Assembly: GCF_003473485.1 (NCBI RefSeq)
Contig: NC_053046.1
Location: 1,560,001 to 1,624,000 of the forward strand
Origin: Medicago truncatula
Lineage: Eukaryota > Streptophyta > Magnoliopsida > Fabales > Fabaceae
DNA length: 64,000 nucleotides
Reading direction: 5' to 3'
Under the pieces are notes generated by a model, which was not told the DNA's origin, did no database searches, and was given only the letters and a program-made list of their open reading frames with translations. A program made the translations under genes and the position numbers. Below are positions 26,982-64,000 of the stretch, piece by piece (position 1 is the stretch's first letter; each line of letters starts with the position of its first letter).

Positions 26982-29900
26982 TCATAATCCAACCTTTCTT
27001 GAATCTAGTTTATCTCCGATCAGAGTGGCTTTCCAGCAATCAACTTGTAGTACAAATACAGAACCCTTCTTCGGAACAACTGTAATTAACAAATCAAAGT
27101 ATTTGGTGAACACATGTTTGAAAAGTTATTAGAGAAAAAATAGATACCAGAACTGATAAGTCATCCAAACTTCAACTTAAGCAAATGGAACACAGAATTG
27201 TGATGCTCAAGGTCACTAATTCTTAACCAATTCCGCCATAATAATGTAAGTGTCACATATGAACCTATTAATGACTTTCGAGTCAAAGTATATATTTCAT
27301 TTTCTTAGTAAAAGGGGAGGAATTTTGAAAGAGAAAATGGGTTTTTGATCTAACTAAAACTTTGGAGCATTCTACCCTAAATAAAAAGTGAGAACTCGTT
27401 CCAACCGTAAATTAGAAACAGCTGAGTAAAAAAAAAATCAATAGGAAATATACGATCACATTAAAACAGTTTCAGATCTCCGTACAATTATATGTAGCAA
27501 ATCTGGTTGGTTTCTGCAGAATACTAAAGATATAACCTGATACGACAATCTAATAGTGCCAAATAAGAATCTCAGCCATATTGTTTATAAGAATGACTAT
27601 CATATCTGCTTGTTACTCAAGAAAGCGGAAACATGAAACAGAAAATTCCATGCCTTTCATAAAATACATCTTCTCAAGTTAAGCAAAACAGAAATTTTCT
27701 TTTACATTCAAACATATAAGCTGTACTTTTCTATGTTCGCAAGTTCCATTTTAAAAGCAACTGAACACATTATTTGTCATTAGTCTTCAATTTATATAAA
27801 AATTCAAAAACAATTACTATTTAAACTATGCTGAAGTTTCAAAACGGAAGTGCAAACTCCTTATAATTCATTAATTATCAAATTTGTACAGCAAACACTG
27901 GTATAAGAAAAGCATACACAAACGACTGTGTATATTCAATAAGCATTAATACTTGAGAAACACAGGAATAACAGCTCTGGTAATGCTAGAAAAGATTCTA
28001 TTTTTAAGTAGTGAAAGAATTACCTCGGAATTTATTATCTTCAGTAATTATCCCAAAAGCTTCTGCAGTTTCACGAATCATGATGCCACCAGTTCCAATA
28101 AAATGGGTTAGTTTACACTCCACAACTGCATAACAGGTGGACATAGTGCAGTCAGTGATAACTACAGACAATTATTTAGGAGGTAGAGGCTAAAATATTT
28201 GTATTTGTTTTGAAGGAGTCTCAAAAGCACAGCTCTTTTCTAAATTTAAAGGACAATGCATGTTGAGTCATCTAGACAGAGTTTGGATATAGAAAATTAT
28301 CAACATGATAACATTAAACTAAAACAACACTAATAGAAATGCATTTTAAAAGAATTGATTCGATTAAACACCTAAAAACATTCAACATAAGTTCTAACAA
28401 CTTTTTAAAAAAAATCCAAGTGTAAGGAGCATCAAAAAATGGTATGCGTGCCACTGGGAATGGAAAGGGAGGATTCAAATGAGAAACATTCCTGGAGAAG
28501 AAGACCTAGGTATGCCCTGAACCAATCAGAAGCTCATCTTACTATTGAACTTATTGCAAGTTGCAACAATAAAATACCAATGATTGCATAAAATACTTCT
28601 ACTCCAACTCTTTCTAAGAACACCAAAAGTAGGCATTCACAGGTTTCAGTACAGCGGCGCAACAATTTTAACACACCTTTCAATGCATATGAAATGTTTA
28701 CACATAAAGACATAAGCATCCGAGGGAAATAATTGACATCCAACCAATGAGAAAATAACTATCCTTGTAATTATCCAAAAAGCTCAAGATAAATGAAATG
28801 GTTTAGCATTTTCTGTTGTAGCCTTGTAGGTGTTCACAACTCATCCAAAAACAAAAAACAAAAATAGAGTGTGGTCAAACCTAAAATAATAGCACCATGT
28901 AGATCTGCACCTAGGAGACATTGAGCCAATTGATTATTCCTGGAACAATAAACAGGTTTGTTGTCATAATTACAAAAGCCATGAGAGAATAAAAGTTCTG
29001 AAAAACTTGAAGATAAGAATCTGTGAAATTCATCAATAGCAAGGATACAAAAACAGTACCCAGTGGATTTAAGCAACAACTTTATATAATCTTTCCACAT
29101 GTCATGCATTGGCTTGAAAATGTCAAATCTGTAATCAAAATGAACAGTGATTACTGATTAGGTAATCAAAAGAATATCATTGTAGACAAATTTAAGCAAT
29201 TAGAATAAAGCAAAATGAATAACACTTTATTTGTTCCTAGCATGAATCTAAGAATTCCCCAATGAAAGACGAAATGAAAAATTTCTCACAACAGTATACA
29301 CTACCACAAACTGCAGGGCTGTAGCAGTAATGACAAGGACCAACATACTTCAATAAAGTGTAGTTTAGAGACCTTGAACTTACTTATGGAACTCTTTAGG
29401 AAGATCCATTGATCCATGTTTTTTATGTTGTTTCATGGACATGTGCTTCTTAGAACGTTTTGAATGAAGTTGCAAAGCCCTTGTTTGAGAAGATGAAGAA
29501 AGTGCGCGTCCTTGCACAAAATTATCAAGAAGGATATAGCTGTCGATTCTCATGCTTCTAGATCCTTGCATGTACTTTTGTGCTGCATCTCCCTTCTGAA
29601 GAAGTTCATGCAATATTCCGGAAACTGAACCTCCTCTTTCAGAAGAAAACTGCAGAATATAAGTCAAATTAGAACAATCAGGGAAGTTATAATCTTAGAT
29701 TGATTCTTTTTTAGAGTTCAGACTTCAAAGGAGATTGACCATATTGACTTTTCGGAATTATAAAAGAGAAGTTGATCTGAAGTAAATACCTCCCCATTAG
29801 TTGTGAGCAGATTTTCATTTACAGCCACAGAAAGTTGGGCATATTCTGGACCATCTTCTTTCTCTGCAGATTAATAGTTAGTCACTTCAGTTTCCCACAT

Positions 29901-30915
29901 AAATTGAAGTTACAAATTAAATATAATTACAGAAAACCTTCAAAAATCAAAATGAAGAAACTTAAGAAAGAATCTTAGTCTTGCTGTTATATCGACTGTA
30001 CAGTACCTTGTGAAATGGCACGACCAAAAAGACCGAAATTCCCTAAGAAAAGGAAATAAAAAAGTATCAGCTTTAACAATAAACAAGAATAAAATCTTAC
30101 ATTCTAGCCCAAAAAAATGCATTTGGGTTTATCTTATGACATAAATAATTGCATAACTGTTTGGAAGAGCTTAAGAAAATAGTTTATGATATGATCATGG
30201 ACTGTTTTCAGCTTATGTTCATAAGTTCCTCCACATTGCTTATTCTCTCTTGAATTGTATAAACAGCTTATGCATAAGCTCTTGTATGATATGATACTCC
30301 CTCCAGCCTTAAAAATAATCATAAGCAAAAAGTACATGTATTTGAACCACATACATGTACTTTTTTTACTTATATTTAAGGCCTGATGGAGTCAAGGTCC
30401 GTTTGGATTGGCTTATTCTTGGGCTTATGCAAAACAGCTTAAGCAAATAAATAAACTTTTATGTATTTTCATAAGCTTGTCAATGTAGTTTATGGAAAAA
30501 CAACTTGTGAAGATACAATTTTTGTTAGTGAGAACTTAAGAATTAACATAAAACTGTATTTATTTGCATAAGCTAATTTTTCATAAGCTCAAAAATAAGC
30601 CAATCCAAACGGGCCCTAAGTGTCATATTGAATAAGTGCTTAATAGTATATCTTAATTAAACAAAATAAAATTGAATTACCTTTGTTGGGTGTATCCAAC
30701 GATGGACGACATAAAGGCAAGGACGGATCATTAGAAGTAGAGGGTGGTGGAATAGGTGATTTTACATCTTCATTTATAGACTTAATGATTTTCTTTTCCT
30801 TTAGGATATGTTCATGATTTATATCCCTTTTGTTTTTCTTTTCTTTTAGTTTATGTTCAGTTTGAATTCTTCTCTCCAAAGCCTCCATTGCACGTTTCCT
30901 TGATTCAGCAGCCAT
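26982..30915 (-). CDS. POP4: RNase P/MRP protein subunit p29 (left-arm copy)
   Basis: Coding exons on the minus strand: 30915-30681, 30042-30007, 29863-29790, 29649-29384, 29128-29060, 28939-28881, 28125-28024, 27079-26982, all GT-AG and in phase, total 312 residues. POP4/Rpp29 binds the RNA of RNase P and MRP and helps mature tRNA 5' ends and pre-rRNA in the nucleus and nucleolus. The translation carries the plant family's QGRALSSSSQTRALQLHSKR, SKKHMSMKQHKK, FDIFKPMHDMWKDY, NNQLAQCLLGADLHGA, GTGGIMIRETAEAFGII and VPKKGSVFVLQVDCWK. The last four lie in the Sm-like barrel. The N-terminal part (AESRKRAMEALERRI) is charged and helical. A noncoding first exon probably lies near 31,130-31,300, with its donor at ATAGTGAGT. 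All coding exons upstream of 28,414 lie in the inverted repeat; the last two do not show in this window's right arm because it ends there. Confidence 0.92.
30396..30616. mobile_element. MITE in POP4 intron (left arm)
   Basis: About 220 bases with imperfect terminal inverted repeats: GGTCCGTTTGGATTGGCTTAT at the left, its complement ATAAGCCAATCCAAACGGGCC at the right. Flanks are CAA and TAA, consistent with a decayed three-base target duplication of the PIF/Harbinger type. It lies in the second coding intron. Confidence 0.75.
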
Positions 30916-31734
30916 TGATAAGAAATCTGGCAATATCACTTCATTAATTAGTTCTTCTCAAAATTCTAGTATATATGACTTGTTTGAATAAACAGCTTAA
31001 TTAAGTGATTATAGCATAAGTGGTTACAGTAGAAGCTAATTTTATAACAATGGGTTGAAATAATTTATAAATATTAGAAAAACAAAATCGATTTGGAAGA
31101 AACTCACTATAGGATTACGAACTTCACGATGGCGGGGCACGAACCGTAGACGGAGGGCGGAGCAGAGGCTGCACGGGACAGAAGAGATGTTGCTGGCAAT
31201 AGAAAGAGGATACAGACGAGGGAAGAAGAGATTCTGAGAAAGGACACGAGAGAGAAGAGAAATAAGGGTTTTTCTTTTGTTAAAATTATTTTTTAATTCA
31301 AACATTACACACGTGCCATTTTAATTGAAAATTATATATGACGTTCATGTGTGGGTTGAATGGGTCAAAATTGATTTGGGGATCAAAACTGTAAAATGGG
31401 ACAATACTTAGAGGGTTGAGTTGTAATTTATTTTGTTAATGGCCAAAATTACAAGATCGTCATACTTAGGGGGTCAAAACTGCTATTAAGCCAAAGTTTT
31501 ATATGATTTATGAGTTTTTTTTTCGTGGTGTAGGGATTTGATCACCGGACCTTATATATAGTTTTAAATCAACACATGAATATCTAAAATATTATTAAAA
31601 AAAACCTTTGATTTTTTGTGTCAAAAACATAAAAACTCATGAGGGCGTTCTACGATAGATATTTAGGCTGATGTTTAATTTAGCATAGAATTAGATGGTT
31701 ACAGTTGTTGACATGCTTTTTTAGATTGATGGTT

Positions 31735-32490
31735 AGGAGAAGAGGCTTGGAAGTGGTGGTGTCGATTATTGGCGTGAGAGGGGAAATGTTGGGGGGAGTG
31801 TTATGTGCTTTTAACTAACATTTTTCTTCAGTGTGACATGGAAGACATGCGTAGTTGGCAACACACGTCCGACAAAGGGTACACTGTTAATAGTGTGTAC
31901 AAGTCGTTGACGACAATGGAGCAATGTAATCAAGATAAATGTTAGAAAATTATATGGAATAAATCTAGACCAAAGTGTTTATCTTTGCTTGGAGGCTTTT
32001 GCAGAATCACCGTCCTACAAAAGATAATCTTGTTAGACGAGGTATTATTCAACCACATTTGAATGTTTGTGTTGGTGGTTTTAGCCTAGAGGAGAATAAG
32101 AATAATTTTTTATGGGTTGTGAGACTTTTAGTAGCATTTAGGTGTTATTGCGACATTGGTTGGGTGTACATCAAGTTAACCCTTCATTTTGATTGATCTT
32201 ATTGTGCAAATTAGTGCATTGATGGATTGGTCTAAGAAAATAAAGTCTTTGCATATTATTTGCCTTGCTTGTGTTTGGGTGATTTGGAAGGAGAGAAATT
32301 TATGTTATTTTTGACAAAAGGAGGAAATGATTTCTCACTTGATCGACAAAGTTAATCGTTTAATGTTTTATGCGATTAACTATTTAATGGTGGCTGGTCT
32401 TTGGTTTGTTCATTGTGGATTTTGATGTAAATATATATAGGTTCATACAGGCACTTCATGTTTGTTTGTCCGTTATTTTTTATTGTCATA
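31735..32490 (+). mobile_element. L1-type LINE 3' fragment (left arm)
   Basis: Broken frames read WWCRLLAWERGNV, then SDKGYTVNSVYKSLT, IFAWRLLQNHR, LVRRGIIQPHLNVCVGG and LACVWVIWKERN. That is the zinc-binding region (zf-RVT) that follows reverse transcriptase in plant L1 LINEs, in the right order. The copy has stops and shifts and only the 3' part remains. The identical copy lies in the right arm. Confidence 0.85.
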
Positions 32491-32838
32491 ATGCGTATAA
32501 TTTACGAACATTAATTTTTATGAAATTTTGATTAAATTTATCTTGAATTTGGATAAAATTATAGGTATAGATAACATATATCTTGCAATTTTATATTGTA
32601 ATAAACTATTCTTTTTCATAAAAAAAATATATTGCACCAAACTATACTTATATTTTTTAATGATACCAACAATAACAAATATCTTTCATTTTTATTTTTT
32701 TGGTAGATTAGCAAATATCTTTTATATTGTTGGTATTATGAAAGTGCAAATATAATATAACAAATAAAGTATTCCCTAAAAAAATATTTAATTTAAATTC
32801 TTATCTTTTTGAATGATATCACTAAAATATCATTCTTA

Positions 32839-33543
32839 GGCCCCGTTTGGATTGGCTTATTTTGAGCTTATATGGGCTTATCTACTCCCATAAGCCTTTT
32901 TAAAGGTGTTTGGGTAAATAAATAAAAATAGTTTATCATAGTTTCATAAGCTGCTTATGCCATATTTTAATAAGCCTAAATTTTCAGCTTACCCTCCGGC
33001 TTAACAAGGAGCTTATGAATTTATGTAACCTCCTTCGATTCTCTTTGAATCCACTTTTTCAAAACATATATTTTAATTTTCTTGTTTTTGTTTTTAGAAA
33101 CAAACATATATTTTAATTATAATGTTAGTTATCTTTAGCGTGCATGAGTAACAAAATTGCTATATACTTATCTTACCAAAGTAACACACATAAATAAGAT
33201 TATTATTTTTTTAAGGAAGATTTTTATTATTTTTTTGTTACGTAACAAAATGAAACTGAATAAATAAAACAAACTTAACTTTTGTTTTTTTGGTAACAAA
33301 TTGTACACTATTATCTTTGATTTTTGTGCTTCGATTCTTTGATTTTTTTGTTAAATTAAAAATATTTAAAATTTCGATAATTGCTCATGTAATGTCAGAT
33401 CCAAACACTTCAATTTATGTAAGTACTTTTTAGTGTACATATCCAAACATAAATAGCTTATCAAGTATAAGAGCTTATGATGTAAGCTCTAATTTTATTA
33501 GTCCTAATGCCATAAGCATCTATATAAGCTGTTTATCCAAACA
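32839..33543. mobile_element. Decayed MITE-type element (left arm)
   Basis: Left end GGCCCCGTTTGGATTGGCTTA; right end TAAGCTGTTTATCCAAACAG, which shares the GTTTGGAT core in inverted orientation. It is flanked by TTA and TAA. Long AT-rich interior without coding sequence. It may be a composite of two MITEs. Confidence 0.55.
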
Positions 33544-34115
33544 GTAATCAAATTTATTTAAAGGTATAGTTGGAAGTAAAAAATTCAGTCTAAATCCATG
33601 TATTCCCTTTATATTCTACCAACATTTATGTGTTAATGCGTATAAAATTTCGAAGAGTAGTTTTTATGTAATTCTGATTAGAATTATAGGTATTGATAAT
33701 ATATATTTTACACATGTTCTAACAAACTATATATATTCTTTTCATTGATTTCAACAATATAAAAGATATTTGCTAATCTATCAGGTAATCTTTTTCCTAA
33801 AACCTTAAGCCATAAGTTATTTTGCTATAGATAATATATATTTTACATTGTAACAAACTATATATATTCTTTTCAATGATTCCCTTGTTAGATTTATTAA
33901 AAAGATTTAGTAAAGAAATAGAAACCATAAATAAGAGCGTCCCTTGCTTATAGTTAAAATATCACCAAATCTTTTTTTACTTTTTGATTTGAATCTTCGT
34001 AAACCCTCCTCTTCTATATAACAAGATTCAGTAACAAAATACTGACTCGATAAAAAGATTTAGTAACAAAATAGAAACCAGACTTTGAATAAGATAATCT
34101 TCATAAACCCTATTC

Positions 34116-34123
34116 TATAAAGA
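34116..34123 (+). promoter_or_regulatory. Likely TATA box of left-arm B3 gene
   Basis: TATAAAGA lies about 100 bases before the ATG, in the same place as TATAAATA upstream of the paralogue at 40.3 kb. The surrounding upstream block is conserved between the two genes. Confidence 0.55.
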
Positions 34124-34219
34124 CACACACTTGATAACAAGTTAAAGAAGCCACACACATTCTCAACTCAGCACAACAAGAAGATCGAACACTTTGTGAA
34201 AGAAAAGAAAAAGAAAGCT

Positions 34220-35044
34220 ATGATGAAGATGAATGAAAATATGGAAGCCATGTTGGAAAAGAAAGCTGCTATGGCTAGGAAGAAGATCAATGCATTGATG
34301 CAAAATATGGAAACAATGGAAGAAAGGAAATTCAACCCTTTCCCTCACTTTACTTTGCATAATCTGTTATCTTATTATGCACCTCAGCTTTATACCGAAA
34401 AAGATTTAGCACAAATAGAGAAAATCAATCAACATCTTCGCCAAGAAACAAAATTGCCTCTTAATATTCCACAAAGCACAATGAAAGGAGAAGCAGTGAA
34501 TAAGAAGAAAAGGTGTCGCTCAAGTGATGAAGGTAGCATGGCTGATAAGGCGAAAAGAAGAGTGAAACCAAAGAGCACGAAGAAGATGGTACCAAAAAAA
34601 CAAGATAAGGAAAAATTGTCATCACCTCCGCCAATATTGCCTATTGATGTCGAGATCAAGATCAAAGAGTTGAATGGCACTGATATCAAACATATCATGT
34701 GTAAGGAATTGTTTGATTCAGATCTCAGTAAACACCAAAGTCGTCTTTTAATGTCACTTAAAGAAGATATAGCTGATGATTTTCTCAACGACACAGAGAA
34801 GAAGACTTTTGGTAGAAAGGATCGGGGCACTAAAAGTAAACTGGTTGGTATAGAAGTGATTGTGTTGGACCCTTCTTTTAGAGAGTTCACAATGTCTTTG
34901 AGGAAGTGGGGCAAAAGTCTTTACAGTCTTGTACAAGATTGGAAACATGTTATGAGGCAAAATAGTTTTGAAATTGGTCAAAAACTCAACATTTGGACAT
35001 TTAGGGTCAATAGCAAGTTGCACTTTCTACTCGACAAAAATTAG
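34220..35044 (+). CDS. B3-domain protein, DUF313 type (left arm)
   Basis: Single-exon frame of 274 residues from the first ATG. The N-terminal third is a Met/Lys-rich helix (KMNENMEAMLEKKAAMARKK). Next come FPHFTLHNLLSYYAPQLYTE and a basic nuclear-localisation stretch (NKKKRCRSSDEG... KAKRRVKPKSTKK). The LPIDVEIKIKELNGTDIKHI segment and HQSRLLMSLKEDIADDF follow, and the end is a plant B3 fold: VIVLDPSFREFTMSLRKW, then GQKLNIWTFRVNSKLHF. This matches the DUF313 class of REM-like B3 proteins, presumed DNA-binding; no target is known to me. Compared with its paralogue at 40.3 kb it has only a remnant of the repeat region (RQETKLP...TMKGEAV). The reverse copy at 57.4 kb is identical. Intact. Confidence 0.8.
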   Translation: MMKMNENMEAMLEKKAAMARKKINALMQNMETMEERKFNPFPHFTLHNLLSYYAPQLYTEKDLAQIEKINQHLRQETKLPLNIPQSTMKGEAVNKKKRCRSSDEGSMADKAKRRVKPKSTKKMVPKKQDKEKLSSPPPILPIDVEIKIKELNGTDIKHIMCKELFDSDLSKHQSRLLMSLKEDIADDFLNDTEKKTFGRKDRGTKSKLVGIEVIVLDPSFREFTMSLRKWGKSLYSLVQDWKHVMRQNSFEIGQKLNIWTFRVNSKLHFLLDKN

Positions 35045-36576
35045 GTAATAGCTATAAACTTGTTTATTTGTTTCTGCATTTAACTGTACTTTGTTTATGC
35101 GATTCTGGAAGCTTGATGAAGAAGACTTGAAATAGTTTATAAGGAGATGGACCAGTATCAGCCTCTGGAAGAATTAGTCTTACCTAGCTAGGAAGAATTA
35201 CATTACATAGTCCTCAAGAGTTTATATTGGTATTCAATTTGATTATGAACAACTTGTAAAAGTATTTTTTACAAGCCACGTAGTGTTTGAGTTGTTTCTT
35301 CTAGTTTTAAGTAGTTGCATGCAAAATGTTTTATACTGTTTACATTATTATCTTTGTTGATGCATGTTGGTCCATTTTAATCTTTCAACCTTATTGTTTA
35401 AATTACTTGAAATATAATTGAATGGAACTCAACTTTTAAATTTCTTATGGTGATTTTGATGTGCAATTGCTGCCTTTAGAGAAGAAGTAATGAAATAAGA
35501 GGGCAAGGGTTTGACTCTATACCCAAATTTCATTTATAAAGAAAATTTTATTTGTTATATTTTTATAATTTAGAGACCAAACAAAAGAAACCAATCAATT
35601 GTAGGTTAGTATGATTTTGATTTTCGGATGGAATAATTATCGGTCAGATTTTAGTTAGCTTCGGGCCGAACTTCGGATTATCGGCACTTTTTTTGAGAAT
35701 CGAAGGTTTAATAAAAGACAACAAAAGAGAGAGGGATGTTTTAGATATCAAATTAAAATTTTATTATTGATTTTTCAATTGTTAATTATTTTATTTTGTT
35801 TGGATACTTCATTATTTTTGTTAGTGAATGAAACACAATGAAAAAGAAAACAGAGAAAAGCAAAGCTATTTCTTAAATAAATCATCATCATCATCATAGC
35901 TAAGAAGAGACTATGTAAATCAAAGTGAGGGTCATTCAAAAGGAACATTACAACAAGACGAAAAATCAAACAACGCCGCACAAGACGACAAACGACACAA
36001 CGTCGCACTCATACGATGAAATCACGTAGAAAAAGCTAGATCTACGTGAAAATCACTTATTTAGATTAAAATGGAGAGAAAAATATGAAGAAGCTACTCT
36101 TTAGTAAATTTGGCAATAGGTCGGTATGAAAATTCGCATCAACATTACATTTCATTACAAGAGGGGGATGTTTGGTCGAAAATTCGCACTCATTTGTTAA
36201 ATGTTGTTTCACCCCGGATAATTTATTTACTTTGCTTGAAAGTTTTTGCTTCTTTGTCCAAAAAGGAAAACGGATAATAGGCTTGGTTAAAATTTACAAA
36301 TAGTGAAATGAAATATTTTCTTCTATTATAAATATATCCAAATGATGATAATGTATCATGCTTATATGCAATAGTGAGTGACTTTATCCATATATGGGGT
36401 TTATCCTATTTTGTAGAGTGTCATGGTATGAGTTTCTTCTGCATAACCATCCATTATATACTTAGATCTTCTTTGGTCTTTGGCAAAAATTGAAGGCTCG
36501 TTAAAAATGACACATCATCAAATTTGAGTCAAATTTTATGGAGGGACTTAAACTGATTAATTTTAAAATAGGGGGA
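35045..36576. other. Left-arm flank without gene
   Basis: AT-rich sequence downstream of the B3 gene, identical in the right arm. Short frames, such as one through an ATC/ATG trinucleotide run near 35,885, are not convincing. Confidence 0.5.
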
Positions 36577-36694
36577 TTAATTCCGTAAGCAAGGTAAAAT
36601 ATAAAATAGGAGGACTAAAATTGTAATTAAGCCAAAAATGAAAAACAATGGACCATATAAAGACAAGGAAAGAATGTGAGTATAACAGAGAAAA
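36577..36694 (+). repeat. Diverged inner edge of inverted repeat (left)
   Basis: Continues to align with 55,721-55,838 in reverse complement, but with six differences in about 118 bases, all transitions. This contrasts with near identity outside it. Beyond 36,694 similarity fades. Confidence 0.8.
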
Positions 36695-36749
36695 AAATAA
36701 CATCAAGATTATACCAACATTAAAAGAGAATACTTTTTTTTTACTACCA

Positions 36750-37102
36750 ATATGAATGCATAGCTACGAGCTATCTTTCACGGCCTTCAGATGGCATGGA
36801 ATAATGGCTTTCGACATGTTGAATGTAAATCAGATTATCAGTCGGCTTTGACTTTGATTAAGGGACGAGTTATGACAACTCACCTCTATGCATCTATTAT
36901 TGACCTCATTAAGAGATTTATTGATTATCCTTGGCTATTGACTTTCCATCATTCCTTGAGGGAAGGTAATAACTATGCGGATTGGTTAGCAAAATACAGA
37001 GCAAGATTGGAGGGTGAATCGATCGTTTGGAGACAATGTCTAACTCCTCTTTCGGCTACTCTTATTGCTGACTCCATGGGGACAACTTTCCTCTCGGTTT
37101 AA
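36750..37102 (+). mobile_element. LINE-associated RNase H fragment
   Basis: The translation reads LRAIFHGLQMAWNNGFRHVE(C), then SDYQSALTLIKG, LTFHHSLREGNNYADWLAK and IADSMGTTFLSV ending at a stop. This is the RNase H-like (RVT_3) domain at the 3' end of plant L1 LINEs, with the E-S-D and HxxREGNxxAD motifs. The frame is open from 36,791. The upstream part is gone. Alone it is a transposon relic, not a host gene. Confidence 0.75.
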
Positions 37103-37174
37103 CTTGTTTCTTTTTTTGTTGTTTTTGTTTTCTTGCTTTCCATACATCAAAAAAGACAAAAATGAAATATATTA

Positions 37175-37949
37175 CTCACTCCGTTCCTTTTTAAGTGTCT
37201 TCTTATGGTGACTTTTTGGTTTCTATTTAACTGTTTTTTTGGGATTTTTAAGGGTACGATTTGTCAATTATACTCTTTGTCAATACTCTTGTCTTTTTCA
37301 ATAAAACTAATTAATGCTATCTATTTGGAAAACTAAAGTTTTTTTTTTTAAAACAAAGTTTGTTTTTTGTTATCTTCAAACTTAAACAAAATTTTGTTAC
37401 AAACAATGGTTCAAGAAGAGTTAAAATTCTATAATAAAGATGAGTAGCAATTGTTAAAAATTTCAAGTGCAAAAACAAATGAACAGATCTGAGAAAAGAA
37501 AAATAAAAGACTCCATGAATGTTCACACAGTGTGAATTTAGCATTGGTTGAAGCCATATTTGAAGTCTTAACTTTGATTAAAAAGTTGGAAGAAAGTTAA
37601 TTATTTCTTAACTTTTGATTAATGTGAAGTTGAAATAATTTTGATATTGATTTAAAATAATTTAAAAGATGTGCACAATATTTCAAAAATTGACAATTGT
37701 TTGTTATGAGAGAGCGAGCGCGCAAAAAAATAGGAATTTATTGGAGAAAAAGATAATAACGGACAATTGTTTGTTATGAGAGAAATACAACTATGAAATT
37801 TATTAGAAAGATAAAGTGTGTGCAAAAAAATAGGAATTTATTGGTGGATTAATTAAATGGTGGTATAATAGGAAGAAAATGTGCAAAAATACACATCGCT
37901 AATTTGATGTTTATTTTTTAAAAAGATACTTAAAAGAGAACGGAGGGAG
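37175..37949. mobile_element. Stowaway-like (Tc1/mariner) element
   Basis: Left end CTCACTCCGTTCCTTTTTAAG; right end, inverted, TACTTAAAAGAGAACGGAGGGAG. Flanked by TA on both sides (37,173-37,174 and 37,950-37,951), the target duplication of this superfamily. At about 775 bases it is long for a Stowaway MITE. Part of the excess is internal duplication of its right half. Non-coding. Confidence 0.8.
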
Positions 37950-38136
37950 TAACTGAAAATTGTTTGTTACGAGAGAAAACGTATTAAATTTATTGGAAAG
38001 ATAAAGTGTGTGCAGAAAAATAGAAATTTATCGGTGGATTAAAATGAGGGTATAATAGAAAGAAAATGTGCAAAAATACACATCGCTAATTTGGTGTTAA
38101 TTTTTTAAAAAGACACTTAAAAAGGAATAGAGGGAG
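37690..38136. repeat. Direct repeats of the Stowaway-like right end
   Basis: A module AATTGTTTGTTAYGAGAG...AAGATAAAGTGTGTGC...ATACACATCGCTAATTTG...GACACTTAAAA...GGAGGGAG occurs in full at about 37,762-37,949 and again at 37,952-38,136. A shorter start-only copy lies near 37,690-37,760. The second full copy ends AGAGGGAGC, a worn terminus. Confidence 0.75.
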
Positions 38137-38309
38137 CACCAACAAAGGAGGCTCTTCATTAGGTATACCAGAAAGGACCTTAAAAGTATACAATCAAACA
38201 GTTCAAAAATGGAACATAACCAACACAAATTGTCGATGCTCAGACAAACAAACGGGCGAGACCGCCCCATAACAGAAAGCCGAACATGTTTGATATTATT
38301 TTTTATTAT

Positions 38310-38553
38310 ATATAGTATAGATTAAAATTATAAGTATAGGTATTAGTGACTTTCAAATGTAACAAACTCAACAAATCATAGTTATATTTTTCAATGGCAA
38401 CAATAATATAACAAAATTATTATATTTTTTAACAACACCAACAACAAAACATTATTATAGTAGAAATATTTGTTTAAGGGTATAATTGAAATAACAAAAA
38501 AGACAGCCCAAAATCCCTCCAAAAATCCTCTATATTCTTTATATATAGTATAA
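38310..38553 (-). mobile_element. Helitron-like element, minus strand, 5' end at ~38,553
   Basis: Read on the minus strand it begins TATACTATATATAAAG, then GGCTGTCTTTTTTGTTAT, CAATTATACCCTTAAAC, TTGTTGGTGTTGTTAAAAA and GAGTTTGTTACATTTG. The same series occurs at 39.4, 43.8 and 45.8 kb. Its start abuts the CTAG end of the next element. Confidence 0.55.
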
Positions 38554-38556
38554 ATA

Positions 38557-39418: not shown

Positions 39419-39835
39419 TCATATATATTGTATATAAAGAAAATAGAGAGTTTCAAGAAGATATTGAGCTGACTTTTTTGTTATTCCAATTATACCCTTA
39501 AACGAATTTGTATTTTTATATAATAATAATATTATATTGTTGATTTTGTTAAAAAAGATAAAAAAAATTGTTATATTATTGTTGGCTTTGAAAATATAAA
39601 TATGGTTTATTGAGTTTGTTACATTTAAAAGCCACAAATATAATCTATACTTATAATTTGTTATCTATATAAAAAAAAATTATATATATAAAACATCGTT
39701 TGTATAATTTAAGTGCAATTTTTTTTTTGGTTACAATACTTGCAAAATTTATATAAAATAGTGTTTATAATCTGTAAGTGTTAGCGCAATAAAAAGAGTA
39801 GAAAACGAGCAGGCGAGTGACCGTCTTTTCGCGAG
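39419..39835 (+). mobile_element. Helitron-like element
   Basis: Begins TCATATATATTGTATATAAAG, carries the shared body (TTTTTTGTTATTCCAATTATA, ATACCCTTAAACGAATT, GAGTTTGTTACATTTAAAA) and ends GCGAGTGACCGTCTTTTCGCGAG followed by TT. The terminal CGAG is a worn CTAG. Non-coding. Confidence 0.55.
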
Positions 39836-40228: not shown

Positions 40229-40236
40229 TATAAATA
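40229..40236 (+). promoter_or_regulatory. Likely TATA box of the repeat-expanded B3 gene
   Basis: TATAAATA, 93 bases before the ATG, within a block (about 40,090-40,328) conserved with the upstream region of the left-arm B3 gene. Confidence 0.6.
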
Positions 40237-40328
40237 CACAGACTCGATAACAAGTTAAAGAAGCCACACACATTCTCAACTCAGCACAACAAGAAGAACA
40301 CTTTGTGAAAGAAAATAAAAAGAAAGCT

Positions 40329-42950: not shown

Positions 42951-42999
42951 AACAAATACAAATGAGCTTTAGTTTCAATTTCAAAATCCTTGTAGATAA

Positions 43000-49985: not shown

Positions 49986-49989
49986 CAGT

Positions 49990-52640: not shown

Positions 52641-52986
52641 ATATAAGAATTCATTCCCACCTTCCTCAGTGTGCATAAGCCCTTCGCCATTCTTTCAAGT
52701 TTCAACGCTTTTCCATCGAAATTAGGGTTCCGAACTTCTTCAAGGTAATTCTTTCTTTCACTGCAATTTTCTTCATAATCAATCATTCTTCGTTATTAAT
52801 CAATCAATAATCACTTTATTTCATAATCGCTTTCTTAATTCCCAAATTTCTTTAATCAAAGTTGTCATTTTTAATTAAAGAAATGTTTGATTCTTACTTT
52901 AGATATTCAATGTTCAATGTTTGATTTCTTATTGTTTTATGTGATTGAATTTAACTTAATTTTTCTTTTTACAACTTATTGTAGTC

Positions 52987-54948
52987 ATGAAAAGAAAAAA
53001 GATTTCAATTGCTGCTGCAAGAACAGAGAGTGATGATGATGAAGTTTTCCCTTTTTTGATAATCTTTCATCTCACGTCACTGCCCGCATTCTGCTTCAAC
53101 TTCCTATTAAGTCGCTTCTCATTTGTAAATCTGTGTGCAAAATTTGGAAAACATTGATTTCAGAATCACATTTTGCTAAATCGCACTTTGAGCGATCACC
53201 ACTTAGTCTCATGATTCGGACCAATGACTATTACCGAGTATCAAGAACCTTGTACCTTCTTGAGTGTGAACCTGAAAAGTTTGAGATTGGAAGCAACGAT
53301 CGTGTGAAGCTTGCGCCTATGTTCAAGCTTCCTCTCAGATCATTTAGGGATAAAAGTGACGAGATCAATAATGAATCCAAGCGCCCTTTTCGTGCTGCGA
53401 GATTAGTTTCGGGGAAAAAGGATGAGAACAGTGATACGGGTAGACAAAGTCTTTATATTGCTTGCAACAGTGATTTTGATAAGTTTAATATTGTGAATTC
53501 TTGCAATGGTTTACTTTGTTTGTCTGACCCATATTTCGGAAACCCATTAGTGATCTGCAACCCAATCACTGGGGAGTTCATAAGACTTCCTGAATCTACC
53601 GCGAATCAAACTCGGGTAGGAAGGCAAGGACGAGCTGCTTTTGGTTTCCAACCTAAAACTAATGAATATAAGGTGATAAACATGAGGGTGAGATATGTTA
53701 AACGTGCCAATGCGTTGGAGTTTAAGATTGTGATCCTTGAGATAAACACACTTGGAACACCATCCTGGAGAAATGTTGAAGTGGATCCTCAAATTTCTTT
53801 TTGGATGCTTAAGAATCCCACTTGTGTGAATGGTGCACTTCATTGGATAAGATATGAGGGTGAGCAAATGTCAATATTGGTTTTCTGTTTTGAAAGTGAG
53901 AGGTTGCAGTCATTTCCTTCTCCTCCACATGAGTTTGGAAATCATAATAATGGAACTTGTGGTAACAGCCATGTTAGCATGGGAGAATTAAAGGGATTTC
54001 TTTACATTTGTGACTACCTTTTTATCTGATGTTCCAATGTGGGTTATGAAGGAATATGGCATTGAAGAATCATGGACTAAGGTTTACAAGTACGATACTT
54101 CATTCAATCCTTTTTCATGGTGTTCGGGTTTATGGCCGATACAACACTTTGAAGAAGGTGCTGCCATATTGTTATATGATTACAATTGTTTAATCTATTA
54201 TGAACCTGCGAAATATCGATGCAAAGCTTTTGAAATTCATGGGAGTCGTTCAGATTGTTTTGAAATAATCCCGCATATTCCAAGTCTAATTTCATTGAAG
54301 GATGTCTTGAAAGGGGACAATATTGAGGTGCTGAATATCCACTCAAGGTAAGAATGTAGCTTCAAATATTTTATTTTTATTGGCGTTTGAATCTGATTGA
54401 TGGTCGATGTTCCCATACAAGTCATAGTAATTAATTTTAATCATAAGACAAGTTTTCAAAGGGACTTCCTATTTTGCCATTCTGTTTGGAGAAAGGAAGA
54501 CTTGTTGTTAGGTTGTGATGTTTCCGCAATCAATTGCTTTTACAACTAATATATTTATGGTGTTGTTTATATTTTTTTTTTATAATTATAGTTTTTTTGG
54601 TTATCTAATATCTACCACCTTTAATTACATATCTGGCTCTGATAGTTAATAGGAAAAAAATCACGTGGACGCAATCTTTTGTTACTAATTACATCTAAAT
54701 TTCCTATATACTTTCGTGTTGATGGAGGAGGAGAAAATGGACAGTTGTTGTAATGTCAGTTATTTGAACGTTCTTAGTTGCTAAGTAGTAAATTGTTTCT
54801 TAAGTGTATTCCATCCCCTGCAATTTGCAGTTTTAGCTAATATTACTTAACCATTATTCCCAAATATTGTTTTAATTTATATAGGTGTGCAAAGTTTAAA
54901 TTGCGGGAAGAAACGGAAGGTCTATCTCTGTCTCAACTGACTGTTTAA
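52987..54948 (+). pseudogene. F-box / FBA-domain protein, frameshifted
   Basis: Exon 1 runs 52,987-54,347 and exon 2 54,885-54,948 (ends SLSQLTV), with GT-AG borders. A noncoding leader exon probably ends near 52,745. The translation gives an F-box (LSSHVTARILLQLPIKSLL then CKSVCKIWKTLI) and an F-box-associated domain (NSCNGLLCLSDPYFGNPLVI CNPITGEFIRLP, GFQPKTNEYKVI, NGALHWIRYEGE, SWTKVYKYD). Such proteins usually link substrates to SCF ubiquitin ligases. Two one-base shifts separate the frames. One lies in the T run at about 53,061-53,066 between the start codon and the F-box; one more T would restore frame. The other is near 54,018, between GFLYICDY and FLSDVPMWVM. With both, a full product is unlikely, unless one or both are sequence errors. 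Confidence 0.82.
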
Positions 54949-55720
54949 GACTTAGAAACTACATGTTTTCCATCATCTTTTGGTGACTTGAAAAATTTAT
55001 CTTCATCCTCGTCTGATGGTGAAGAATTTGGTGAAGAGTACAGCTGATAAGAAGGAATTTCCATACACTAGGCAGGGTTATGTTAAATCACAAGTTATGA
55101 TTTGGCTAGTTGCGATTTTTGAAAAAAAATTCAAATCTGGTTCTAGGATGCAAATGATGTCTTTTTGTAAACTTTAATCTAGATGTTCACTAATCATTAT
55201 CTATGCTGTAAGACTGGCCAGTTATCTTGTTGGCCTGGTTTAGAAAATGATTGACTATATTGCTCGGCTATTTCGTTCTGTTTCTCGATCTCCTATATGT
55301 GTTTTACTTCATCAATCCTGATTTCCTTGATTCTTAGTCTTTAACTGCTCCTTGAAAAGGGTTTCTGAATCCCTAAGCGTTAATTATAATGAATTATCAG
55401 TTTGAGGAGCTTTGCTGAATAGTTTAGATTTGAATTTCAATTTTGGGGGCATGATATTGAACCCTTTACATCCATTTGTCACATTCACTTTCTCATTGTC
55501 CTAAATCAATCCTTTTGGTGCTATGATGGCTATTTCTATCTATATTTCCGGTTCATAGGATCTATAGTCAAAAGGTGTGGCAAATGATTTCGAATGCTCT
55601 TGTTTTCTCCTTAGTTCATGATATTTATTTATATCTTATACTACATATAAATGTTAAACAAGTAATTGGTTTTTGTTTTGTGTGTGGGAGAGTTGTAGAT
55701 TAAGAAAGGAATGTGTTAGT
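54949..55720. other. 3' flank of F-box pseudogene
   Basis: Sequence after the F-box stop up to the inner edge of the right arm. No second gene is supported. Confidence 0.5.
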
Positions 55721-55838
55721 TTTTCTTTGTTATACTCACATTCTTTCCTTGTCTTTATATGGTCCACTGTTTTTCATTTTTGGCTTAATTACAATTTTAG
55801 TCCCCCTATTTTATACTTTACCTTGCTTACGGAATTGG
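55721..55838 (-). repeat. Diverged inner edge of inverted repeat (right)
   Basis: Partner of 36,577-36,694, six transitions apart. It includes GGCTTAATTACAATTTTAGTC, a phrase also typical of dispersed legume repeats, so the junction may lie in an older repeat. Confidence 0.8.
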
Positions 55839-57370
55839 TCCCCCTATTTTAAAATTAATCAGTTTAAGTCCCTCCATAAAATTTGACTCAAATTTGATGA
55901 TGTGTCATTTTTAACGAGCCTTCAATTTTTGCCAAAGACCAAAGAAGATCTAAGTATATAATGGATGGTTATGCAGAAGAAACTCATACCATGACACTCT
56001 ACAAAATAGGATAAACCCCATATATGGATAAAGTCACTCACTATTGCATATAAGCATGATACATTATCATCATTTGGATATATTTATAATAGAAGAAAAT
56101 ATTTCATTTCACTATTTGTAAATTTTAACCAAGCCTATTATCCGTTTTCCTTTTTGGACAAAGAAGCAAAAACTTTCAAGCAAAGTAAATAAATTATCCG
56201 GGGTGAAACAACATTTAACAAATGAGTGCGAATTTTCGACCAAACATCCCCCTCTTGTAATGAAATGTAATGTTGATGCGAATTTTCATACCGACCTATT
56301 GCCAAATTTACTAAAGAGTAGCTTCTTCATATTTTTCTCTCCATTTTAATCTAAATAAGTGATTTTCACGTAGATCTAGCTTTTTCTACGTGATTTCATC
56401 GTATGAGTGCGACGTTGTGTCGTTTGTCGTCTTGTGCGGCGTTGTTTGATTTTTCGTCTTGTTGTAATGTTCCTTTTGAATGACCCTCACTTTGATTTAC
56501 ATAGTCTCTTCTTAGCTATGATGATGATGATGATTTATTTAAGAAATAGCTTTGCTTTTCTCTGTTTTCTTTTTCATTGTGTTTCATTCACTAACAAAAA
56601 TAATGAAGTATCCAAACAAAATAAAATAATTAACAATTGAAAAATCAATAATAAAATTTTAATTTGATATCTAAAACATCCCTCTCTCTTTTGTTGTCTT
56701 TTATTAAACCTTCGATTCTCAAAAAAAGTGCCGATAATCCGAAGTTCGGCCCGAAGCTAACTAAAATCTGACCGATAATTATTCCATCCGAAAATCAAAA
56801 TCATACTAACCTACAATTGATTGGTTTCTTTTGTTTGGTCTCTAAATTATAAAAATATAACAAATAAAATTTTCTTTATAAATGAAATTTGGGTATAGAG
56901 TCAAACCCTTGCCCTCTTATTTCATTACTTCTTCTCTAAAGGCAGCAATTGCACATCAAAATCACCATAAGAAATTTAAAAGTTGAGTTCCATTCAATTA
57001 TATTTCAAGTAATTTAAACAATAAGGTTGAAAGATTAAAATGGACCAACATGCATCAACAAAGATAATAATGTAAACAGTATAAAACATTTTGCATGCAA
57101 CTACTTAAAACTAGAAGAAACAACTCAAACACTACGTGGCTTGTAAAAAATACTTTTACAAGTTGTTCATAATCAAATTGAATACCAATATAAACTCTTG
57201 AGGACTATGTAATGTAATTCTTCCTAGCTAGGTAAGACTAATTCTTCCAGAGGCTGATACTGGTCCATCTCCTTATAAACTATTTCAAGTCTTCTTCATC
57301 AAGCTTCCAGAATCGCATAAACAAAGTACAGTTAAATGCAGAAACAAATAAACAAGTTTATAGCTATTAC

Positions 57371-58195
57371 CTAATTTTTGTCGAGTAGAAAGTGCAACTT
57401 GCTATTGACCCTAAATGTCCAAATGTTGAGTTTTTGACCAATTTCAAAACTATTTTGCCTCATAACATGTTTCCAATCTTGTACAAGACTGTAAAGACTT
57501 TTGCCCCACTTCCTCAAAGACATTGTGAACTCTCTAAAAGAAGGGTCCAACACAATCACTTCTATACCAACCAGTTTACTTTTAGTGCCCCGATCCTTTC
57601 TACCAAAAGTCTTCTTCTCTGTGTCGTTGAGAAAATCATCAGCTATATCTTCTTTAAGTGACATTAAAAGACGACTTTGGTGTTTACTGAGATCTGAATC
57701 AAACAATTCCTTACACATGATATGTTTGATATCAGTGCCATTCAACTCTTTGATCTTGATCTCGACATCAATAGGCAATATTGGCGGAGGTGATGACAAT
57801 TTTTCCTTATCTTGTTTTTTTGGTACCATCTTCTTCGTGCTCTTTGGTTTCACTCTTCTTTTCGCCTTATCAGCCATGCTACCTTCATCACTTGAGCGAC
57901 ACCTTTTCTTCTTATTCACTGCTTCTCCTTTCATTGTGCTTTGTGGAATATTAAGAGGCAATTTTGTTTCTTGGCGAAGATGTTGATTGATTTTCTCTAT
58001 TTGTGCTAAATCTTTTTCGGTATAAAGCTGAGGTGCATAATAAGATAACAGATTATGCAAAGTAAAGTGAGGGAAAGGGTTGAATTTCCTTTCTTCCATT
58101 GTTTCCATATTTTGCATCAATGCATTGATCTTCTTCCTAGCCATAGCAGCTTTCTTTTCCAACATGGCTTCCATATTTTCATTCATCTTCATCAT
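57371..58195 (-). CDS. B3-domain protein, DUF313 type (right arm)
   Basis: 274 residues, identical in translation to the gene at 34,220-35,044 in the left arm and described there. It points toward the spacer, as its partner does, so the two genes converge on the 19-kb centre. The upstream TATAAAGA is also kept. Confidence 0.8.
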   Translation of the reverse strand: MMKMNENMEAMLEKKAAMARKKINALMQNMETMEERKFNPFPHFTLHNLLSYYAPQLYTEKDLAQIEKINQHLRQETKLPLNIPQSTMKGEAVNKKKRCRSSDEGSMADKAKRRVKPKSTKKMVPKKQDKEKLSSPPPILPIDVEIKIKELNGTDIKHIMCKELFDSDLSKHQSRLLMSLKEDIADDFLNDTEKKTFGRKDRGTKSKLVGIEVIVLDPSFREFTMSLRKWGKSLYSLVQDWKHVMRQNSFEIGQKLNIWTFRVNSKLHFLLDKN

Positions 58196-58871
58196 AGCTT
58201 TCTTTTTCTTTTCTTTCACAAAGTGTTCGATCTTCTTGTTGTGCTGAGTTGAGAATGTGTGTGGCTTCTTTAACTTGTTATCAAGTGTGTGTCTTTATAG
58301 AATAGGGTTTATGAAGATTATCTTATTCAAAGTCTGGTTTCTATTTTGTTACTAAATCTTTTTATCGAGTCAGTATTTTGTTACTGAATCTTGTTATATA
58401 GAAGAGGAGGGTTTACGAAGATTCAAATCAAAAAGTAAAAAAAGATTTGGTGATATTTTAACTATAAGCAAGGGACGCTCTTATTTATGGTTTCTATTTC
58501 TTTACTAAATCTTTTTAATAAATCTAACAAGGGAATCATTGAAAAGAATATATATAGTTTGTTACAATGTAAAATATATATTATCTATAGCAAAATAACT
58601 TATGGCTTAAGGTTTTAGGAAAAAGATTACCTGATAGATTAGCAAATATCTTTTATATTGTTGAAATCAATGAAAAGAATATATATAGTTTGTTAGAACA
58701 TGTGTAAAATATATATTATCAATACCTATAATTCTAATCAGAATTACATAAAAACTACTCTTCGAAATTTTATACGCATTAACACATAAATGTTGGTAGA
58801 ATATAAAGGGAATACATGGATTTAGACTGAATTTTTTACTTCCAACTATACCTTTAAATAAATTTGATTAC

Positions 58872-59576
58872 TGTTTGGATAAACAGCTTATATAGATGCT
58901 TATGGCATTAGGACTAATAAAATTAGAGCTTACATCATAAGCTCTTATACTTGATAAGCTATTTATGTTTGGATATGTACACTAAAAAGTACTTACATAA
59001 ATTGAAGTGTTTGGATCTGACATTACATGAGCAATTATCGAAATTTTAAATATTTTTAATTTAACAAAAAAATCAAAGAATCGAAGCACAAAAATCAAAG
59101 ATAATAGTGTACAATTTGTTACCAAAAAAACAAAAGTTAAGTTTGTTTTATTTATTCAGTTTCATTTTGTTACGTAACAAAAAAATAATAAAAATCTTCC
59201 TTAAAAAAATAATAATCTTATTTATGTGTGTTACTTTGGTAAGATAAGTATATAGCAATTTTGTTACTCATGCACGCCAAAGATAACTAACATTATAATT
59301 AAAATATATGTTTGTTTCTAAAAACAAAAACAAAAAAATTAAAATATATGTTTTGAAAAAGTGGATTCAAAGAGAATCGAAGGAGGTTACATAAATTCAT
59401 AAGCTCCTTGTTAAGCCGGAGGGTAAGCTGAAAATTTAGGCTTATTAAAATATGGCATAAGCAGCTTATGAAACTATGATAAACTATTTTTATTTATTTA
59501 CCCAAACACCTTTAAAAAGGCTTATGGGAGTAGATAAGCCCATATAAGCTCAAAATAAGCCAATCCAAACGGGGCC
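58872..59576. mobile_element. Decayed MITE-type element (right arm)
   Basis: Mirror copy of 32,839-33,543. Both substitutions that I noticed between the arms fall within this element (59,278 and 59,334 on this side). Confidence 0.55.
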
Positions 59577-59924
59577 TAAGAATGATATTTTAGTGATATC
59601 ATTCAAAAAGATAAGAATTTAAATTAAATATTTTTTTAGGGAATACTTTATTTGTTATATTATATTTGCACTTTCATAATACCAACAATATAAAAGATAT
59701 TTGCTAATCTACCAAAAAAATAAAAATGAAAGATATTTGTTATTGTTGGTATCATTAAAAAATATAAGTATAGTTTGGTGCAATATATTTTTTTTATGAA
59801 AAAGAATAGTTTATTACAATATAAAATTGCAAGATATATGTTATCTATACCTATAATTTTATCCAAATTCAAGATAAATTTAATCAAAATTTCATAAAAA
59901 TTAATGTTCGTAAATTATACGCAT

Positions 59925-60680
59925 TATGACAATAAAAAATAACGGACAAACAAACATGAAGTGCCTGTATGAACCTATATATATTTACATCAAAATCCAC
60001 AATGAACAAACCAAAGACCAGCCACCATTAAATAGTTAATCGCATAAAACATTAAACGATTAACTTTGTCGATCAAGTGAGAAATCATTTCCTCCTTTTG
60101 TCAAAAATAACATAAATTTCTCTCCTTCCAAATCACCCAAACACAAGCAAGGCAAATAATATGCAAAGACTTTATTTTCTTAGACCAATCCATCAATGCA
60201 CTAATTTGCACAATAAGATCAATCAAAATGAAGGGTTAACTTGATGTACACCCAACCAATGTCGCAATAACACCTAAATGCTACTAAAAGTCTCACAACC
60301 CATAAAAAATTATTCTTATTCTCCTCTAGGCTAAAACCACCAACACAAACATTCAAATGTGGTTGAATAATACCTCGTCTAACAAGATTATCTTTTGTAG
60401 GACGGTGATTCTGCAAAAGCCTCCAAGCAAAGATAAACACTTTGGTCTAGATTTATTCCATATAATTTTCTAACATTTATCTTGATTACATTGCTCCATT
60501 GTCGTCAACGACTTGTACACACTATTAACAGTGTACCCTTTGTCGGACGTGTGTTGCCAACTACGCATGTCTTCCATGTCACACTGAAGAAAAATGTTAG
60601 TTAAAAGCACATAACACTCCCCCCAACATTTCCCCTCTCACGCCAATAATCGACACCACCACTTCCAAGCCTCTTCTCCT
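59925..60680 (-). mobile_element. L1-type LINE 3' fragment (right arm)
   Basis: Mirror copy of 31,735-32,490 with the same breaks, showing that the LINE was already dead when the arm was duplicated or last homogenised. Confidence 0.85.
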
Positions 60681-61498
60681 AACCATCAATCTAAAAAAGC
60701 ATGTCAACAACTGTAACCATCTAATTCTATGCTAAATTAAACATCAGCCTAAATATCTATCGTAGAACGCCCTCATGAGTTTTTATGTTTTTGACACAAA
60801 AAATCAAAGGTTTTTTTTAATAATATTTTAGATATTCATGTGTTGATTTAAAACTATATATAAGGTCCGGTGATCAAATCCCTACACCACGAAAAAAAAC
60901 TCATAAATCATATAAAACTTTGGCTTAATAGCAGTTTTGACCCCCTAAGTATGACGATCTTGTAATTTTGGCCATTAACAAAATAAATTACAACTCAACC
61001 CTCTAAGTATTGTCCCATTTTACAGTTTTGATCCCCAAATCAATTTTGACCCATTCAACCCACACATGAACGTCATATATAATTTTCAATTAAAATGGCA
61101 CGTGTGTAATGTTTGAATTAAAAAATAATTTTAACAAAAGAAAAACCCTTATTTCTCTTCTCTCTCGTGTCCTTTCTCAGAATCTCTTCTTCCCTCGTCT
61201 GTATCCTCTTTCTATTGCCAGCAACATCTCTTCTGTCCCGTGCAGCCTCTGCTCCGCCCTCCGTCTACGGTTCGTGCCCCGCCATCGTGAAGTTCGTAAT
61301 CCTATAGTGAGTTTCTTCCAAATCGATTTTGTTTTTCTAATATTTATAAATTATTTCAACCCATTGTTATAAAATTAGCTTCTACTGTAACCACTTATGC
61401 TATAATCACTTAATTAAGCTGTTTATTCAAACAAGTCATATATACTAGAATTTTGAGAAGAACTAATTAATGAAGTGATATTGCCAGATTTCTTATCA

Positions 61499-63533
61499 AT
61501 GGCTGCTGAATCAAGGAAACGTGCAATGGAGGCTTTGGAGAGAAGAATTCAAACTGAACATAAACTAAAAGAAAAGAAAAACAAAAGGGATATAAATCAT
61601 GAACATATCCTAAAGGAAAAGAAAATCATTAAGTCTATAAATGAAGATGTAAAATCACCTATTCCACCACCCTCTACTTCTAATGATCCGTCCTTGCCTT
61701 TATGTCGTCCATCGTTGGATACACCCAACAAAGGTAATTCAATTTTATTTTGTTTAATTAAGATATACTATTAAGCACTTATTCAATATGACACTTAGGG
61801 CCCGTTTGGATTGGCTTATTTTTGAGCTTATGAAAAATTAGCTTATGCAAATAAATACAGTTTTATGTTAATTCTTAAGTTCTCACTAACAAAAATTGTA
61901 TCTTCACAAGTTGTTTTTCCATAAACTACATTGACAAGCTTATGAAAATACATAAAAGTTTATTTATTTGCTTAAGCTGTTTTGCATAAGCCCAAGAATA
62001 AGCCAATCCAAACGGACCTTGACTCCATCAGGCCTTAAATATAAGTAAAAAAAGTACATGTATGTGGTTCAAATACATGTACTTTTTGCTTATGATTATT
62101 TTTAAGGCTGGAGGGAGTATCATATCATACAAGAGCTTATGCATAAGCTGTTTATACAATTCAAGAGAGAATAAGCAATGTGGAGGAACTTATGAACATA
62201 AGCTGAAAACAGTCCATGATCATATCATAAACTATTTTCTTAAGCTCTTCCAAACAGTTATGCAATTATTTATGTCATAAGATAAACCCAAATGCATTTT
62301 TTTGGGCTAGAATGTAAGATTTTATTCTTGTTTATTGTTAAAGCTGATACTTTTTTATTTCCTTTTCTTAGGGAATTTCGGTCTTTTTGGTCGTGCCATT
62401 TCACAAGGTACTGTACAGTCGATATAACAGCAAGACTAAGATTCTTTCTTAAGTTTCTTCATTTTGATTTTTGAAGGTTTTCTGTAATTATATTTAATTT
62501 GTAACTTCAATTTATGTGGGAAACTGAAGTGACTAACTATTAATCTGCAGAGAAAGAAGATGGTCCAGAATATGCCCAACTTTCTGTGGCTGTAAATGAA
62601 AATCTGCTCACAACTAATGGGGAGGTATTTACTTCAGATCAACTTCTCTTTTATAATTCCGAAAAGTCAATATGGTCAATCTCCTTTGAAGTCTGAACTC
62701 TAAAAAAGAATCAATCTAAGATTATAACTTCCCTGATTGTTCTAATTTGACTTATATTCTGCAGTTTTCTTCTGAAAGAGGAGGTTCAGTTTCCGGAATA
62801 TTGCATGAACTTCTTCAGAAGGGAGATGCAGCACAAAAGTACATGCAAGGATCTAGAAGCATGAGAATCGACAGCTATATCCTTCTTGATAATTTTGTGC
62901 AAGGACGCGCACTTTCTTCATCTTCTCAAACAAGGGCTTTGCAACTTCATTCAAAACGTTCTAAGAAGCACATGTCCATGAAACAACATAAAAAACATGG
63001 ATCAATGGATCTTCCTAAAGAGTTCCATAAGTAAGTTCAAGGTCTCTAAACTACACTTTATTGAAGTATGTTGGTCCTTGTCATTACTGCTACAGCCCTG
63101 CAGTTTGTGGTAGTGTATACTGTTGTGAGAAATTTTTCATTTCGTCTTTCATTGGGGAATTCTTAGATTCATGCTAGGAACAAATAAAGTGTTATTCATT
63201 TTGCTTTATTCTAATTGCTTAAATTTGTCTACAATGATATTCTTTTGATTACCTAATCAGTAATCACTGTTCATTTTGATTACAGATTTGACATTTTCAA
63301 GCCAATGCATGACATGTGGAAAGATTATATAAAGTTGTTGCTTAAATCCACTGGGTACTGTTTTTGTATCCTTGCTATTGATGAATTTCACAGATTCTTA
63401 TCTTCAAGTTTTTCAGAACTTTTATTCTCTCATGGCTTTTGTAATTATGACAACAAACCTGTTTATTGTTCCAGGAATAATCAATTGGCTCAATGTCTCC
63501 TAGGTGCAGATCTACATGGTGCTATTATTTTAG
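61499..63533 (+). CDS. POP4: RNase P/MRP protein subunit p29 (right-arm copy, cut by window end)
   Basis: Six exons visible: 61,499-61,733, 62,372-62,407, 62,551-62,624, 62,765-63,030, 63,286-63,354, 63,475-63,533. They encode the same residues as the first six coding exons of the left copy, through ADLHGAIIL. The two last exons of the family (IMIRETAEAFGII and VPKKGSVFVLQVDCWK) would lie beyond 64,000. Whether the copy is complete cannot be told here. No damage is seen in the part present. The two POP4 genes stand head to head, about 30.6 kb apart at their start codons. Confidence 0.85.
61798..62018. mobile_element. MITE in POP4 intron (right arm)
   Basis: Mirror copy of the MITE at 30,396-30,616, in the same intron of the second POP4. 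Confidence 0.75.
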
Positions 63534-64000
63534 GTTTGACCACACTCTATTTTTGTTTTTTGTTTTTGGATGAGTTGTGAACACCTACAAGGCTACAACA
63601 GAAAATGCTAAACCATTTCATTTATCTTGAGCTTTTTGGATAATTACAAGGATAGTTATTTTCTCATTGGTTGGATGTCAATTATTTCCCTCGGATGCTT
63701 ATGTCTTTATGTGTAAACATTTCATATGCATTGAAAGGTGTGTTAAAATTGTTGCGCCGCTGTACTGAAACCTGTGAATGCCTACTTTTGGTGTTCTTAG
63801 AAAGAGTTGGAGTAGAAGTATTTTATGCAATCATTGGTATTTTATTGTTGCAACTTGCAATAAGTTCAATAGTAAGATGAGCTTCTGATTGGTTCAGGGC
63901 ATACCTAGGTCTTCTTCTCCAGGAATGTTTCTCATTTGAATCCTCCCTTTCCATTCCCAGTGGCACGCATACCATTTTTTGATGCTCCTTACACTTGGAT

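Follow-up and report, generated by a model that had tools for sequence, protein, structure and literature searches.

The window, a stretch of 64,000 nucleotides from Medicago truncatula, carries two long inverted arms separated by a spacer, with genes of the B3 family in both arms and in the spacer between them. The features discussed below are given in window coordinates, each with its strand where it has one.

26985..30957, minus strand: probable RNase P/MRP p29 (POP4-like) gene, extending from the left arm (upstream pieces) to the left of 28,414 (3' pieces)
28414..36576, plus strand: near-identical part of the left arm, differing from the right at 3 of 8,163 columns; its outer end lies beyond the comparable range
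31969..32193, plus strand: dead LINE piece of the left arm with a mirror copy in the right (zf-RVT, E 0.00066, below the cut-off)
34220..35044, plus strand: arm B3 gene (At2g31720-like, PF03754, E 5.3e-19), open, 274 codons and a stop
36577..36702, plus strand: left inner rim, diverged; it shares 118 of 126 columns with the right rim
36703..55713: spacer of 19,011 bp, its two 1-kb ends without mutual homology
36764..37099, plus strand: LINE RNase H piece (RVT_3, E 2.1e-15) just within the spacer at its left end, with no mirror copy
40329..41537, plus strand: spacer B3 paralog S1, a mosaic with an arm-like 5' part and an S2-like 3' part
44400..45101, minus strand: spacer B3 paralog S2, inverted relative to S1, with an incomplete B3 match (profile positions 10-93 of 113)
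55714..55838, minus strand: right inner rim, the diverged partner that pairs with the left rim
55839..64000, minus strand: right arm, near-identical part, continuing past the window end
57371..58195, minus strand: mirror copy of the arm B3 gene in the right arm, identical to the left-arm gene

Outside the repeat, a long reading frame of the Vps62 family was found on the minus strand at 8,837-10,507, adjoined by a tRNA-Thr gene (anticodon AGT) at 8,572-8,645, and a reverse transcriptase piece (RVT_2), presumably of Copia type, occupies the left end of the window at 293-814. An F-box gene with weak beta-propeller matches lies in the spacer near its right inner end (53,043-54,029). Short inverted matches near 30.4-30.6 kb in the left arm are MITE-like, a label assigned by eye.

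When the window was compared with itself by BLASTN, positions 28,414-36,702 aligned with 64,000-55,714 on the minus strand in a single match of 8,289 columns at 99.867% identity (9 mismatches, 2 gap openings), which is too long and too nearly identical to have arisen by chance. Within its outer 8,163 columns (28,414-36,576; identity 99.96%), the arms differ by substitutions at 33,081 and 33,137 and by one base in the length of a T run at 31,515. Both substitutions are transitions, and position 33,081 is flanked by T runs. A preliminary description of the sequence, made by eye, had reported at least 8.16 kb per side with two substitutions and one homopolymer difference, and the same three differences were recovered computationally. 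It had likewise seen no end to the right arm; the match indeed persisted to the last base of the window (64,000). Position 28,414 is only the mirror of that edge, and the arm length of 8.29 kb is a minimum. The spacer, put at 19 kb in the same description, measured 19,011 bp. Two long inverted arms, more than 99% alike, enclose unique sequence, as in a large palindrome or inverted segmental duplication.

The inner end of the match required revision. It had been placed at 36,576/55,838, whereas homology was found to reach 36,702/55,714, 126 columns further, through a rim in which identity falls to 93.7%. Seven substitutions (36,577, 36,578, 36,599, 36,611, 36,648, 36,688 and 36,696) and 1 indel (36,697) separate the two rims. 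The density of differences in the rim (8/126) was far above that of the outer tract (3/8,163; Fisher p = 3.6e-13), and the same held for substitutions alone (7/125 versus 2/8,162; p = 5.3e-12), the odds of a difference being 184 times higher in the rim than in the rest for all differences and 242 times higher for substitutions. Eight of the 11 differences fall within 121 columns; none of 20,001 random placements grouped them so closely, the tightest random group of eight spanning 643. Beyond 36,702/55,714 no homology was found: the 1-kb spacer ends scored 21 locally against each other, compared with a median of 25, a 95th percentile of 34 and a maximum of 65 for 200 random window pairs. Because identity steps from 99.96% to 93.7% and homology is absent past the rim, the match does not represent one duplication of one age. 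As read from the alignment, it is of two ages, with a young copied tract whose inner limit would lie inside or beside an older inverted repeat.

Plant substitution rates are of the order of 6.5e-9 to 1.5e-8 per site per year. With 95% limits taken over both of these assumed rates, copying of the outer tract would date to between roughly 1,000 and 68,000 years ago, a rough figure based on 2 substitutions only, and the rim pair to about 0.75 to 9 million years, also rough and based on 7 substitutions. The rim is thus older than the arms and is possibly a separate older repeat. Alternatively, it may be what remains unconverted at the margin of a longer, old inverted duplication, and no seed for copying. 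Screened as a possible dispersed repeat, the rim gave a best other match within the window of 61, with maxima of 47-58 for 11 nulls (block-shuffled in 10 cases, reversed in one), too marginal a difference for the rim to be called dispersed. A 25-base pattern from the rim, required to match exactly, had 0 matches in bacterial and archaeal genome contigs and 0 in viral contigs, collections that do not represent plants. At the inner ends, a comparison of words of 8-14 bases with the arm stretch 34,900-36,590 revealed no target-site duplication; only words of 8 bases were common to both, and these were taken as chance. Five of the 6 rim transitions between 36,577 and 36,696 have A/T on the left and G/C on the right, too few for a test, and the left rim looks as if it had decayed by loss of methyl-cytosine.

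Regarding the cargo of the arms, the preliminary description stated that whole genes are mirrored. This holds for the B3 gene, of which the two arms carry identical copies. For the POP4-like gene only a partial mirror is visible: the 3' pieces are found to the left of 28,414, and the right copy runs into the edge of the window. These 3' pieces (28,007-28,171 and 26,985-27,125) matched RNase P/MRP p29 with E values of 3.3e-05 and 0.011, both Pfam scores being under the curated cut-off, and no p29 match was found in the three upstream pieces examined. The name and the exon order over 26985..30957 were assigned by eye and are our assumption; on the sequence matches, this is probably an RNase P/MRP p29 (POP4-like) gene. 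Of the dead LINEs described as mirrored, a zf-RVT piece is present in both arms.

Both spacer paralogs, S1 and S2, matched the At2g31720-like B3 family, and the four B3 copies follow one another along the window in the orientation plus, plus, minus, minus. S1 was found to be a patchwork. Against the arm B3 gene, its 5' UTR was identical at 128 of 132 positions (4 gap positions) and its N-terminal codons at 223 of 228, giving 351 of 360 ungapped positions together, whereas the 3' part was identical at 520 of 597 (50 gap positions). The contrast between 9/360 and 77/597 differing positions is significant (p = 7.9e-09), and synonymous changes follow it, the N-terminal part having 0 at 39 sites and the C-terminal part about 17 at 101 (p = 0.003 after rounding). 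Against the inverted S2 the pattern is reversed: 443 of 465 positions were identical in the 3' part (6 gap positions) and 137 of 177 in the N-terminal part (30 gap positions). Purifying selection was rejected as the cause of the conserved 5' part: the 5' UTR is as alike as the N-terminal codons, and no synonymous change was seen at the 39 N-terminal sites; conservation of an untranslated region is not accounted for by selection on the protein. We read the patchwork as past ectopic conversion among B3 paralogs; a gene fusion would look similar. These paralogs point to earlier exchange at the locus.

Two further observations were made on S1 and S2. Between 40,550 and 40,991, S1 contains an in-frame tandem array of 15.8 copies of a 27-bp unit (alternatively 4 copies of a 114-bp unit), the arm copy being limited to a short stretch there. 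An older inverted pair surrounds S1 and S2 within the spacer (40,910-42,941 and 44,101-44,922), with pieces that are 94% and 91% alike, and it is not concentric with the large repeat.

The reading that we consider probable, if only by a little, is a recent inverted segmental copy in the plant chromosome, produced by homology-seeded copying. This reading is favoured by the divergence step at 36,577 together with spacer ends that are without homology. Support also comes from the outer substitutions, both of which are transitions, a class frequent among real variants (33,081 being the one between T runs), from the older exchange among the B3 paralogs, and from an arm GC content (31.4%) not raised over the spacer (31.0%) or the left flank (34.0%), a weak comparison given that the left flank is possibly arm itself. 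Two older inverted repeats would have been present at the outset, and a replication end that broke or collapsed in one of them would have invaded the other. Copying would then have run outward for at least 8 kb by break-induced replication or long-tract gene conversion, with either arm as template. As cargo, the tract would have taken along the B3 gene, remains of transposons and, of the POP4-like gene, no less than the 5' part. In yeast, collapsed forks are known to give rise to long-tract conversion (PMC8473981).

A young inverted duplication had been among the options of the preliminary description, next to a pair kept alike by conversion and an assembly fault, and to the extent that recent copying is favoured this stands; what does not stand is a single-age duplication of the whole match, which is contradicted by the step at 36,577. 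A simple one-step inverted duplication of at least 8.29 kb with later mutation would fit the unbroken alignable match over 8,289 columns, but one age would not yield a 184-fold (for substitutions, 242-fold) step in the odds over the last 126 columns. Only an extreme rate of mutation local to the inner rim could rescue this reading, and we consider it very improbable. An assembly fault is a more serious competitor, although we judge it unlikely. The right end of the spacer would have been joined, via the diverged rim, to a turned second copy of the left arm, allelic or duplicate, and the true chromosome past 55.8 kb would carry other sequence. The right arm reaches the last base of the window, which puts its outer end outside the view, and 3 differences in 8,163 columns, one in a homopolymer and one between T runs, come close to the result of assembling a single locus twice. 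Moreover, a wrong overlap could arise where a short, genuine inverted repeat sits at the join. On the other hand, such a join must pass a 126-column repeat that is only 93.7% alike, and repeats so diverged should be separable by accurate reads, perhaps not by noisy ones. Two transitions would also exceed what is expected of one haplotype assembled twice, and would be few for two haplotypes of an outcrossing plant.

The arms might alternatively belong to an old palindrome that has been kept alike by continuing arm-to-arm gene conversion, like the palindromes of mammalian sex chromosomes and of the willow W chromosome, the rim being the edge that conversion did not reach and showing the true age; this we hold to be rather improbable. 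The contrast between a rim at 93.7% and arms at 99.96% is what it would produce, the patchwork B3 paralogs suggest that exchange does occur at the locus, and known conversion tracts exceed 9 kb (PMC3723533). However, the rim is just 126 columns long, with homology falling to nil behind it, and one event suffices for all of the observations. The arm GC content is not raised either, an argument that is weak for the reason given above; in primate X palindromes, as described in PMC8981503, arm GC is raised over the flank and not significantly over the spacer. In its fullest form, which is doubtful to the same degree, the palindrome would have undergone arm-to-arm conversion over at least 8 kb that reset the arms recently and left a datable unconverted rim, inside a B3 cluster whose inverted paralogs have exchanged sequence more than once. 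If that were true, the rim could serve as a natural clock by which to date ectopic plant conversion, perhaps at a site outside any sex-determining region.

Returning to the preferred reading, a recent homology-seeded inverted copy, the inverted arrangement probably serves no function in itself, and what likely follows from it is a second copy of the B3 gene and a place where the 19-kb spacer is able to invert. Should the arrangement be real, a B3 regulatory gene has been doubled, and perhaps an RNase P subunit gene as well, at an inversion-prone site of 19 kb, and the age step at the inner rim offers a clean test of how inverted duplications arise in plants. If it is false, it is an instructive assembly error, made believable by the near-perfect identity of the arms.

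Among known systems, the W-chromosome palindromes W.P1 and W.P2 of willow (Salix purpurea) are also plant structures with gene-bearing inverted arms of many kb, and four of the willow arms are more than 99% alike on average (PMC7023750). The willow palindromes differ in sitting in the female-specific sex-determining region, and W.P1 has 20-kb arms around a short spacer, given in that source as 2.6 kb in the text and 3,586 bp in a table (PMC7023750). Conversion in willow is, furthermore, backed by a sister species and by read depth (PMC7023750). The human Y palindrome P6 resembles the present locus in arm identity (99.97%, compared with 99.96% for the outer tract), and spacer inversion, predicted here, is a rare by-product there (PMC3723533). 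P6 has 110-kb arms without protein-coding genes, and its conversion is proven at the population level, whereas the arms here are at least 8.3 kb and carry genes; conversion tracts there have a mean of 2,068 bp and a maximum of more than 9 kb (PMC3723533).

Inverted gene pairs are also known in plants from Arabidopsis, where VIM4-VIM2 of accession Cvi and PAI4-PAI1 are examples (PMC13213937). The VIM locus is structurally polymorphic, which has been ascribed to non-allelic recombination, and in Cvi, VIM2 and VIM4 came to lie close together through a deletion (PMC13213937). These pairs differ from the present arms in that they yield hairpin-type transcripts and siRNA (PMC13213937); here, a read-through hairpin across the arms is unlikely because of the 19-kb spacer. 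The inverted repeats of C. elegans with paralogous gene pairs share with this locus near-identical inverted arms beside paralogs, but the example described in PMC1803023 has 2,207-bp arms and a 126-bp spacer, and among three nematodes such an inverted arrangement is in many cases conserved (PMC1803023). If real, the M. truncatula structure is one more of the broad palindrome or inverted duplication kind, distinguished by its datable rim and its patchwork paralogs.
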